Part shown: piece after piece, positions 58,248-60,878 of the stretch
Position numbering within the stretch: the first letter of the stretch is position 1
How the letters are laid out: each line of letters opens with the position of its first letter
NCBI RefSeq assembly: GCF_029266855.1
Contig: NZ_JAQSWB010000003.1
Location: forward strand, 124,001-188,000
DNA length: 64,000 nt
Source: Fluviicola sp.
GTDB lineage: Bacteria > Bacteroidota > Bacteroidia > Flavobacteriales_D > Crocinitomicaceae
Direction: 5' to 3'
Translations under genes and position numbers: made by a program
The notes under the pieces: generated by a model
What the model was told of the DNA's origin: nothing
Seen by the model: the letters and a program-made list of their open reading frames with translations, nothing else
The model's database searches: none

Positions 58248-58729
58248 TTCCAACTTGGACCGGCATATTGATTTTTATCGGAACTTTTTTCCTTACCGAA
58301 TTTGCAGCGTGGTCTGCCCATAAATTCGCAATGCATGGATTTATGTGGTATTTCCACAAGGACCATCACCAGGGAGAACAAGGTTTTTTTGAACGCAACG
58401 ACGTCTTTTTCCTGATTTTTGCTATTCCCAGTTGGTTGGGGATTATGCTTGGCCTGATGTATAAACAATATGGTTTTGTTTGGATGGGATTTGGGATCAT
58501 GGCGTATGGATTCACCTATTTCCTCATCCATGATGTCTTTATCCATCGGCGGTTTAAATGGATTCGTGAAATCAATACTCCTTACTTTTTAGCGATCAGA
58601 CGTGCTCATAAAATGCATCATAAACATCTGAACAAAGAAGATGGCGAATGTTTTGGTTTGTTAATTGTCCCTTTCAAATATTATCTTGAAGCAAGACGTT
58701 CGTACAAACAAAATCAAGCTTCCAAATGA
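58244..58729 (+). CDS. crtZ: beta-carotene hydroxylase
   Basis: A 161-residue di-iron membrane hydroxylase. His clusters: HKFAMHG, HKDHHQGE, HDVFIHRRF, HKMHHKH. It adds 3-hydroxyl groups to beta-carotene, giving zeaxanthin. It overlaps the CruF-like and the lycopene cyclase genes by 4 bp each. Confidence 0.92.
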   Translation: MIPTWTGILIFIGTFFLTEFAAWSAHKFAMHGFMWYFHKDHHQGEQGFFERNDVFFLIFAIPSWLGIMLGLMYKQYGFVWMGFGIMAYGFTYFLIHDVFIHRRFKWIREINTPYFLAIRRAHKMHHKHLNKEDGECFGLLIVPFKYYLEARRSYKQNQASK

Positions 58730-59424
58730 GTTTGTATTTTTGGATCATCCTGGGAACAATCTGTTTTCCTTTTTTGCTGAGCTTTGACAAGAAAATTCAT
58801 TTTCATACACACTGGCGCACGATTTTTCCGGCAATTTTATTGGTTGGCTTGTTTTTCCTAATCTGGGATAATTATTTTACGGATCATGAGATTTGGGGGT
58901 TCAATCCAAAATATGTTCAGGGTATTTACCTGTTCCGTTTGCCCTTGGAGGAAGTATTGTTCTTTTTGGTAGTCCCATATGCCTGCCTTTTTGTTTACGA
59001 GGTCATTAAAGGTTATTTCCCGGATTTGAAACTTGCGCTTTTAGGCCGTGCTTTTGCTTTTTCGATGGTGCTTTCCGGTTTGTTGCTGACTACCTTTTAT
59101 ATTCGGAATTGGTATACCTTAACCGCTTGTTCACTATCTACTTTACTGATTATTGGAATCCATTTCAGGGCCAAAGCACCCTGGTTCAATTCATTTGCAC
59201 TTGCTTTCCTTGTTTGCCTGATTCCTTTTTTGATTGTGAATGGCGCTCTGACGGGTTTATTTACAGATGAACCGGTTGTTTGGTATTCAGAAAATCACAT
59301 CATCGGAATTCGAATAGGAACGATTCCTTTGGAAGATCTGTATTACAACCTGAGCATGTTGTTGCCAATTGTTTTGATTCACGAAGTCCTGAAACAGGCT
59401 AAAATGAAGAAATCCGAAACGTAA
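58726..59424 (+). CDS. lycopene cyclase (CrtYcd-like membrane type)
   Basis: A 232-residue, six- or seven-helix protein. PxE(E/D) motif FRLPLEEVLFFLVVPY near 78 and a second GTIPLEDLYYNLSM near 195, as in the fused CrtYc/CrtYd cyclase of Bacteroidota. It cyclises lycopene to beta-carotene. It overlaps crtZ by 4 bp (ATGA). It is the last gene of the SpoIIE-crt group. Confidence 0.92.
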   Translation: MSLYFWIILGTICFPFLLSFDKKIHFHTHWRTIFPAILLVGLFFLIWDNYFTDHEIWGFNPKYVQGIYLFRLPLEEVLFFLVVPYACLFVYEVIKGYFPDLKLALLGRAFAFSMVLSGLLLTTFYIRNWYTLTACSLSTLLIIGIHFRAKAPWFNSFALAFLVCLIPFLIVNGALTGLFTDEPVVWYSENHIIGIRIGTIPLEDLYYNLSMLLPIVLIHEVLKQAKMKKSET

Positions 59425-59510
59425 CAGTTGATGTATTTTAAAAAACGAAACGTTAGAGATAAAATTTAGTGCAGTATCTTGTTTTTCCGAGCATTTAATC
59501 ATGTAGACCA

Positions 59511-59554
59511 AGTATTGGTATAGCATGGATTAAGTATAGATAGAGCATAGATAC
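59511..59554. repeat. four 11-bp phased direct repeats, AGYAT core
   Basis: AGTAT or AGCAT begins at 59511, 59522, 59533 and 59544. The units are AGTATTGGTAT, AGCATGGATTA, AGTATAGATAG and AGCATAGATAC. The last differs by one base from the last unit at 18087. A further AGCAT is at 59490, 21 bases before the first. Confidence 0.7.
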
Positions 59555-59565
59555 CCCACATTTTA

Positions 59566-59847
59566 CACTGCGAAACTTCAGTGCTGAAAGTCCTGACCAA
59601 AGCGTCAGTGGAAGCAGTGTTTACGTTCAACCTGCGAAGCTCGAAAGAGCGAAGTAGGGAATAACCTGCGAAGTCGACGACAAAGTAGGTTTCATACTAC
59701 GAAGTTCGCAAGAACGCTGAAAGCCTTGACCGAAGCGTCAATGGAAGTAGGTTTCACATTCGAAACTCAAAAGAGTGCTGAAAGTCCTGACCGTAGCGTC
59801 AATGGAAGTAGTATTTTGCACTACGAAACTCGAAGAGTGAAGGTGTA
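59566..59847 (+). repeat. structured intergenic repeat array, six hairpin units
   Basis: Units begin near 59566, 59631, 59663, 59696, 59758 and 59819. Long units (about 60 bases) have an outer stem, hairpin A and hairpin B; short units (about 30 bases) lack B. Hairpin A: GCTC-GAAA-GAGC, GTTC-GCAA-GAAC, ACTC-AAAA-GAGT, ACTC-GAA-GAGT, GTC-GAC-GAC. Hairpin B: CTGAC-CAAAGC-GTCAG and TTGAC-CGAAGC-GTCAA. Outer stems: CACTGC/GCAGTG, CCTGC/GTAGG, AACCTGC/GTAGGTT. The paired bases change together, so the fold itself seems kept. Read on the plus strand the loops are GNRA type. Confidence 0.8.
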
Positions 59848-59909
59848 CTTTTTAATTTTCAAAGTTTGTAAGAGCAAAGGCGTGCCTCTAAATTAACTCC
59901 CAACTAATT

Positions 59910-60878
59910 TTAAAGTTTTCTTGTAAGCAGGAATTTTGCCAGTTCGCGAAGTGTATCTGTTCTCAGTCCCTTTTGTTCCAGTTGCTGTAAGTTTTCCATC
60001 GCCTGGTCATAATATGCATTCATTGTTTGCTGACTCGCGTTTTTAGCACCAATTTCTTCAAACAAGGTCTTTGCAAATTCAATTTTATCATTTGCAGGCT
60101 GCATTTGTACCAGTTTGTCAAATCTTGAATCATTTGTTGACAGCGCAATCTCCTTGGCTTTTAGAAAAAGCAGTGTTTTTTTATTCGAAAGGATATCTCC
60201 GCCAACTTGTTTACCGAATAATTCCGGATCTCCGTATAGGTCCAAAATATCATCCTGGATCTGAAAAGCTATTCCCAATGAAACACCAAATCCGTATAAG
60301 TTCCTTCTTGCTTCTTCGTCCTGATTTCCCAAAATGGCTCCGAGTTCCAGGGCACAACCTAACAAAACGGAAGTTTTCAGACGGATCATTTCAATGTATT
60401 CTGATTCCGAAACATCGGGGAGGCTTTCGAAATCCATGTCGAATTGCTGTCCCTGGCAAACTTCAATGGCAGTTTCATTGAAACGCTTCAGTAAAAGCGG
60501 AAATCGGTGGTCCGGATATTTTGCAAGTTGCTTAAAGGCTTCAACAAAAAGAACATCTCCGCAGAGAATAGCAGTTTTAGAATCCCATTTGATATGCACC
60601 GTCGGTTTTCCTCTTCGAACAGGAGCTTCATCCATGATATCATCGTGGATCAGGGAGAAGTTATGAAACAGTTCAATGCAGAGTGCGGCGTGGATGCTTT
60701 CTTCCTTGGGAATATTAAAAATCTCTCCGCTTATTAATGTTAAGATTGGGCGCATCCGTTTTCCTCCCAATGAAAGGAAATAACGCGGGGGATCGAACAA
60801 ATTACGGGGCTCATCGTCGAGCTTTAGGTTCTTAATTTGATTTTCAAGGTATGCGGCGTATTGAGAAAGATCGTTCAT
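59910..60878 (-). CDS. polyprenyl diphosphate synthase (probable geranylgeranyl-diphosphate synthase)
   Basis: A 322-residue trans-prenyltransferase. First Asp-rich motif FSLIHDDIMDEAPVRRGKPT, second FQIQDDILDLYGDPELFGK, with GGKRMRP and KTSVLLGCALELGA. Product length (C15-C20) cannot be read reliably; the crt context suggests GGPP. It overlaps rfbA by one base (TAATG). Confidence 0.9.
   Translation of the reverse strand: MNDLSQYAAYLENQIKNLKLDDEPRNLFDPPRYFLSLGGKRMRPILTLISGEIFNIPKEESIHAALCIELFHNFSLIHDDIMDEAPVRRGKPTVHIKWDSKTAILCGDVLFVEAFKQLAKYPDHRFPLLLKRFNETAIEVCQGQQFDMDFESLPDVSESEYIEMIRLKTSVLLGCALELGAILGNQDEEARRNLYGFGVSLGIAFQIQDDILDLYGDPELFGKQVGGDILSNKKTLLFLKAKEIALSTNDSRFDKLVQMQPANDKIEFAKTLFEEIGAKNASQQTMNAYYDQAMENLQQLEQKGLRTDTLRELAKFLLTRKL

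Follow-up and report, generated by a model that had tools for sequence, protein, structure and literature searches.

Among the dispersed intergenic repeats of bacteria, BOX elements are described in the relevant passages of PMC3049150 as boxA-(boxB)n-boxC, that is, a fixed 5′ module followed by tandem middle modules, with predicted RNA stem-loops. According to the same passages, they have proliferated in one species and are rarer in its relatives. For REP elements, the sections on insertion in PMC3733652 already put on record dimers inserted within palindromes, and atypical hairpins beside subclass 2.6 genes, mostly from Bacteroidetes, are mentioned in part of PMC6006769. We analysed an array of hairpins located in a 64,000-nucleotide stretch of the genome of a Fluviicola species, hereafter the window. 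A search of the open-access literature returned no description of this repeat, and the sequence strings of a REP-like hairpin that carries one of its modules matched no paper.

Read off the window letters, the array (59565-59848) consists of six hairpin units in direct order. On its 5′ side lies a lycopene-cyclase-type gene (crtY, 58726-59424, + strand, PF18916) and on its 3′ side, convergent to the first, a polyprenyl synthase gene (GGPPS, 59910-60878, − strand, PF00348). The earlier note's description of six units filling the gap between these two genes was therefore borne out. Coordinates of the leader that precedes the units, of the units and of the nested modules are reported in Table 1.

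Table 1. Parts of the array in the window, in window coordinates.
Feature	Position	Strand	Description
Leader	59510..59563	+	11-nt iterons AAGYATRGATN, some degenerate; ends with GATACCCCAC + ATTT; TRF 59510-59552; recurs elsewhere in the genome
Unit 1	59565..59620	+	ACACTGC/GCAGTGT outer stem, GAA, ACT-TC-AGT inner; contains hairpin B
Hairpin B module in unit 1	59584..59611	+	28 nt, nested 3′ of AGTG
Unit 2	59631..59658	+	CCTGC-GAA-GCTC-GAAA-GAGC-GAA-GTAGG; without hairpin B; RNA fold z −4.6
Unit 3	59663..59691	+	AACCTGC-GAA-GTC-GAC-GAC-AAA-GTAGGTT; without hairpin B
Unit 4	59697..59750	+	CTAC-GAA-GTTC-GCAA-GAAC-G[B]AA-GTAG; RNA minimum-energy fold is a three-way junction
Hairpin B module in unit 4	59717..59744	+	nested
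Unit 5	59757..59812	+	CATTC-GAA-ACTC-AAAA-GAGT-G[B]AA-GTAG; without outer stem
Hairpin B module in unit 5	59778..59805	+	nested
Unit 6	59818..59848	+	GCACTAC-GAA-ACTC-GAA-GAGT-GAA-GGTGTAC; outer stem imperfect; without hairpin B; read directly from the letters

The units follow a common plan, namely an outer stem with C-G closing, GAA, inner stem, short loop, inner stem, GAA (AAA in unit 3) and outer stem, which we call the double-GAA hairpin. The paired changes of the inner stem listed in the earlier note (GCTC/GAGC, GTTC/GAAC, ACTC/GAGT, GTC/GAC) were all found in the window, ACTC/GAGT being present twice, and unit 1 adds ACT/AGT. Outer stems are ACACTGC/GCAGTGT, CCTGC/GTAGG (twice), CTAC/GTAG and an imperfect GCACTAC/GGTGTAC. 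A second hairpin, hairpin B, is present in units 1, 4 and 5, between the 3′ arm of the inner stem plus one G and the final AA. The two pairings previously given for its stem, CTGAC/GTCAG and TTGAC/GTCAA, both occur, but the third copy is CTGAC/GTCAA, with a C-A mismatch. That the short units (2, 3 and 6) lack hairpin B, and that one B-bearing unit (unit 5) has lost its outer stem, was confirmed. The loops GAAA and GCAA are indeed of GNRA type, but they concern two of the six units alone, the other loops being TC, GAC, AAAA and GAA. Double-GAA hairpins numbered 22 in 399,653 bases of the same genome, compared to 0-1 in five block-wise mononucleotide shuffles; these bases are stretches picked for carrying repeats, so that 22 is not a genome-wide rate, and two of the 22 (L017, L034) are not array units.

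When the array was queried by BLAST against its own genome (G000, 4.30 Mb), 66 matches were obtained. A pattern for the leader end gave 26 matches in this genome, against 0+1 for the reversed control pattern, and the family was found at about thirty places between genes. Arrays open with a leader in which 11-nt iterons (AAGYATRGATN) run up to a terminal CCCCACC, behind which come optional hairpins with the plan outer stem-GAA-inner stem-GAA-outer stem. All modules of one copy are on one strand, behind the leader. Their order 3′ of the leader (long hairpin GAGACGTAGCGACTGTAAAGTCTGCTACTGTCTC, unit 1, unit 2, unit 3, further units) is loosely constant, with free omission and a few exchanges: units 1 and 2 are swapped in L016 and L022, and the long hairpin comes last in L024. 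Two leaders (L146, L147) are without any unit, and the number and identity of units vary freely among copies. Gene context was scored for 31 leaders (L009 being left out), relative to the nearest ORFs of at least 90 codons. Eleven leaders were in convergent gaps, 7 had both neighbours in sense and 7 both in antisense orientation, and 6 were divergent; 20 of the 31 are thus not in convergent gaps, and some array copies are upstream of genes. No transcriptional context is common to the 31 leaders.

Two variants of the leader were seen. In L012, L015, L025, L027, L144 and L145, it is split by a module of about 59 nt, AGAAAGTGCGATAGCACTTGAAGACGAAGG...CTGAGG, placed between GCATAGA (GTATAGA in L025) and TACCCC. 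A second leader type was found in L148, L149 and L150, and also in relatives (L047, L084 and L085); its iterons are followed by TAGTATGA or a similar sequence and by no hairpin units; in L148-L150 it carries a TGTTA..GGATTTAACA palindrome. This second type is possibly the older form in the genus.

The modules recur at about thirty places, and their building block resembles a stop-signal hairpin present behind some genes of tRNA type, here and in related bacteria (see below), which makes spreading repeat DNA likelier than an RNA special to the carotenoid genes. We propose, with a probability of about 0.78, that the window array is a single copy of a modular repeat dispersed between genes and amplified in this species; the repeat would be BOX-like in character and made from a terminator-type hairpin and a nesting mini-hairpin. 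Copies would have spread as DNA, and their length would change by gain, loss and recombination of units. Carriage by a phage, a plasmid or a virus was rejected: the plasmid and phage collections searched contained nothing that matched the repeat, and viral contigs nothing that matched its patterns exactly.

Hairpin B was then considered at the scale of the genome. A pattern allowing up to 3 mismatches found it at 51 places (control, 0), and in all 51 near-complete copies the 5′ joint lies inside another hairpin, one base 3′ of the 3′ arm of a stem, within AGYG^RA or a close variant. Host classes, which were set by hand-fitted patterns (six of them for diverged REP-like hosts), comprised 23 REP-like hairpins, with the joint GACTGAGCG^GAGTCGAAGTC, 11 copies of unit 1, 11 units of the 2/4 type, and 6 copies of B itself. 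Fifty copies have a regular 3′ side, the exception being L029, whose 3′ side shows a fusion with the long hairpin module. Two truncated remnants outside the 51 (L028, L145) are joined to other modules and are not within a complete hairpin. The variable pair of the B stem is T-A in 32 copies, C-G in 10, T-G in 3 and C-A in 6. Each of the six double copies has, in its first copy, a G in the CAGTG end, and none of the 38 copies with A at this position carries a second B. Over the 119 genomes searched, hairpin B was present in 5, the own genome and four others of its genus.

Since B copies differ by host context, 51 copies do not amount to 51 independent insertions, and the sober reading is that of few insertion events followed by amplification: B would have inserted a few times, with at least one event per host context (REP-like hairpin, unit 1, unit 2/4, B), and the composites would then have been amplified. 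A bolder possibility is that hairpin B is a minimal mobile module of 27-28 nt, with folded hairpins as its targets and AGYG^RA as its insertion point, its 3′ end (CAGTG^G) restoring the target and thereby permitting self-nesting. This would account for the nesting of all 51 copies, for the four host contexts and for the six double copies behind a first copy with G, and we hold it as a tentative proposal, rather doubtful at this stage. If it were true, nesting of B would represent a hairpin-in-hairpin growth yielding multi-branched repeats, and if nesting were active and guided by structure, B would be among the smallest mobile DNA units. Nesting is also relevant to the outer stem enclosing two hairpins, or three-way junction, that had been attributed to the long units. 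At minimum energy, 59696-59750 is predicted to take this shape, whereas 59566-59618 is not. The best explanation of the junction is that hairpin B, a separate module of 28 nt, has come to nest in a hairpin that was already there.

Other nested arrangements were seen. At L155 (G000:C6:201467), a REP-like hairpin with B is apparently placed inside another REP-like hairpin, making three levels. At L034, L040 and L185, a second insert module (ATGCTTNCGCTNAAGCTNNAGCA...) is found in REP-like hairpins, near the position that B has in others, so that nesting may not be unique to B.

Dispersed copies of TGAGCGNAGTCGAAGT, the REP-like hairpin that hosts B, occur in 29 of 99 genomes (20 of 47 genera). 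Inverted pairs of it are also seen, their starts separated by about 40-65 bases. Inspection of the units revealed no unpaired GTAG or CGTC foot, GTAG falling inside the 3′ arm. A single Y1 gene (REP-associated tyrosine transposase-like) is present in the genome (L046:1327-1905, G000:C13). It scores 45.9 bits against NF047646, below the cut-off of 80, and has orthologues 71-85% identical in six genomes of the genus (G002, G005, G006, G007, G008, G013). The repeats could be REP-type elements moved by this one Y1 protein, with hairpin B inserted into single-stranded hairpins. The gene itself, which has close orthologues in relatives rich in REP and is 83-85% identical to those of G006, G007 and G008, is in keeping with this scenario, as are the lack of any target duplication seen and the 5′ joint of B, always one base 3′ of a stem's 3′ arm. 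However, a regular-expression scan of the flanking stretches found the REP-like hairpin beside none of the 23 Y1 loci of the genus, and a REP transposase (RAYT) beside the repeats was rejected on this ground. Moreover, REP counts and Y1 counts do not track each other across the genus.

The strand of the elements relative to replication bears on the same question. It was tested at 32 leader places and 22 places with a REP-like hairpin and B, the double place at C1:227 kb being counted once and C1:753869 being judged via a neighbouring stretch. Strand agreed with third-position GC skew at 20 of 32 leader places (p 0.22) and 16 of 22 REP-like+B places (p 0.05), with plain GC skew at 18 of 32 and 15 of 22, and with gene orientation at 19 of 32 and 10 of 22, respectively. 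This is a weak sign that element strand is tied to replication direction, too weak a bias to help the Y1 scenario, which from these sequence comparisons we regard as unlikely; none of them revealed a link between the spread of the arrays and the genome's single REP-type transposase gene. One Y1 locus, L172, has two iteron-like 10-mers in its stretch.

To return to the dispersed repeat, conservation of its stems was analysed in relatives. A covariance model, R1, was built from 19 units (alignment A1, in which two rows, from L140 and L098, had wrong outer-stem letters); it matches at least 21 of the 119 genomes, the own genome included. Covariation was recounted on two alignments that are letter-exact, with rows chosen for having the architecture, a choice that inflates pairing: in A2 (19 rows, taken from the loci), 43 cells were changed on both sides, compared to 13.1 in shuffles and 3-7 in slid controls, and in A3 (13 rows, several genera), 31 cells, compared to 8.8 in shuffles. 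Pairs with changes on both sides numbered 9 in A2 and 8 in A3, and 17 of 500 shuffles reached this in each; in neither recount did further pair types outnumber those of shuffles. With relatives included, covariation of the stems clearly exceeds that of the controls, which means that pairing has been kept. This is a point against our reading, as a purely neutral, decaying repeat would not predict pairing kept for long. In a spreading repeat, stems may have been kept either through a need for the fold during spreading or through the youth of the copies.

Alternatively, selection on RNA could lie behind the covariation: the arrays would form a dispersed family whose members each yield, from the leader that they carry, a structured RNA with a function in cis or in trans. 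Apart from the strong covariation in A2 and A3, two observations would fit: the modules of a copy are all on one strand behind the leader, and the short unit at 59628-59660 is predicted to fold exceptionally well as plus-strand RNA (z −4.6), far better than the minus strand (z −1.2). The other folding results do not go in this direction. B-bearing units were predicted to fold no better than shuffles (z −0.8, −0.7 and −1.4), the minus strand was slightly more stable in the two of them tested on both strands (−14.5 vs −12.9 and −11.9 vs −10.7 kcal/mol), and for the entire array no strand difference in folding energy was found (z −1.78 and −1.77). A promoter scan, which does not cover Bacteroidota promoters, remained at background, with 4 found vs 4.1 expected, and the free variation of unit number and identity between copies is not what such a family would lead one to expect. 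Finally, a known Rfam family was ruled out, since covariance models of Rfam 15 gave no match at gathering threshold in the window and none with E up to 1 in 59400-59900. A functional RNA family would therefore seem improbable.

The double-GAA hairpin was also found next to stable RNA genes. It starts 3 nt 3′ of tmRNA in five genomes (G005, G009, G011, G045, G073). In G031 it starts 3-4 nt 3′ of two tRNA-Ala genes. The own genome has it 3 nt 3′ of one tRNA-Ala gene, and there seven T follow it. For the tmRNA-linked hairpin of G005, G009, G011 and G045 and for the tRNA-Ala-linked hairpin of the own genome, 6-8 of the next 8 bases are T. Most other R1 matches shown have no tRNA gene nearby, and among the tmRNA 3′ ends of the genus, 3 of the 12 parsed have the hairpin and 9 do not, the own genome being one of the latter; G010 (not parsed) and G003 (without full match) were left out of this count. 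Behind tmRNA and tRNA-Ala, the double-GAA hairpin is probably a terminator, on the same strand as in arrays. This position and T-rich run lend indirect support to the earlier suggestion of an RNA read on the plus strand, for which the folding of the whole array, devoid of strand preference, gave none.

Two side observations were made at such loci. At L237:1494-1526 and downstream (G000:C10), a double-GAA hairpin with T7 is placed 3′ of tRNA-Ala and precedes a hairpin TGGACTCGGTCCA. The block is repeated once; in its second copy another module, CTTACGCTGAAGCTTCAGCACAAGCG, is apparently nested. At the tmRNA loci of the genus (L241-L252), the hairpin directly 3′ of tmRNA is not the same from one sister species to the next, as though one terminator had taken the place of another.

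Could the arrays then be working transcription terminators in tandem, as in SPRITE elements? The same hairpin, with its 6-8 T in 8 behind tmRNA and the own tRNA-Ala, speaks for it. However, units of arrays have largely lost the T-run, with a mean of 3.4 T in 8 bases (35 hairpins, of which 2 are accidental and outside arrays), a terminator scan called no terminator-like site inside the window array, and most copies, as reported above, are outside convergent gaps, some of them upstream of genes. Tandem terminators are for these reasons quite improbable. We rather favour, within the dispersed-repeat reading, that the double-GAA hairpin derives from, or has ancestry in common with, the intrinsic-terminator hairpin of some tmRNA and tRNA-Ala genes in this order. 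The connection would rest on a short common architecture and a similar 5′ context (CCACCTT), and could be a convergence.

Turnover of the arrays was estimated by comparing 23 places with the site of a relative, 22 of them in G007, the nearest species, and one in G001. Flank pieces in G007 were 77-91% identical. A search with 26 joined flank pieces, blind to the leader, gave 18 matching sites in G007. Eleven of these align on both sides, and what lies in between in G007 includes no leader end and no iteron run. The G007 pair of L021 (L181) keeps a leader ending in ACTCCACC and one double-GAA-like unit, and that of L147 (L188) keeps iterons without the leader end. At the remaining five (L018, L019, L022, L026, L027), only one flank was aligned; for L026, a leader is present in the relative at a distance of about 0.8 kb. 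Three more sites, located via repeat matches, have their leader in common with G007, with no units there (L081, L102) or two (L092), and L011, also located in this way, is without leader in G001. Overall, five sites have a leader, whole or part, in common with G007. At the empty sites, no sharp insertion boundary or target duplication was readable, which leaves a separate insertion at each site unproven, and absence at any single site may be due to loss in the relative. Taken together, the empty sites and the leaders with differing units indicate that sister species differ in whole arrays, and also in the units that follow a leader which has stayed in place.

At the window site, too, both flanks align in G007, without leader or array. 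More generally, the loci of 12 relatives were displayed for the crtY-GGPPS gap, and in none of the 7 readable ones was the array present; the gap contains a small gene in G004, G005, G007, G011 and G013, and is short in G006 and G012. The small gene of these five relatives is lipoprotein-like (..CGKYPDGPNFS.. in G007), and the window has leader and array instead, in 59425-59909. That the array would serve the crt operon as a 3′ UTR or small RNA, as put forward in the earlier note, is accordingly very improbable: the window leader does begin 86 bases 3′ of crtY, with the strand in common, but about thirty other copies exist in mixed orientation (11/7/7/6), none of the 7 relatives has the array at this gap, and T-runs are missing.

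A first consequence is one of caution, as a covarying intergenic hairpin array at one locus can be a copy of a dispersed repeat. If our reading is correct, the family would also offer a compact case for the assembly of small bacterial repeats, in which an array has arisen from a terminator-type hairpin, the leader can persist while units turn over, and a 28-nt module is nested in other hairpins.

How does this repeat compare with described systems? With REP elements and REPINs, as presented in the parts of PMC3733652 and PMC6006769 that concern them, it shares a dispersed host hairpin forming inverted pairs, but the unpaired GTAG/CGTC foot is missing here and no RAYT gene was found beside the repeats. 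With the intrinsic terminators of tRNA and tmRNA genes, array units have hairpin architecture and strand in common, but they are in tandem, in any gene context and without T-runs. SPRITE elements offer a parallel of a terminator-like hairpin turned dispersed repeat; however, the account given of them in PMC3049150 includes a uridine-rich tract, whereas array units are largely without T-run. The comparison with BOX, for which that same account served, is one of plan and not of sequence. The arrays differ from BOX by their iteron leader, placed first, their double-GAA units, their nested mini-hairpin and the absence of any fixed 3′ module found, and they resemble BOX in that a fixed end module is combined with variable middle modules, in many copies over the genome.
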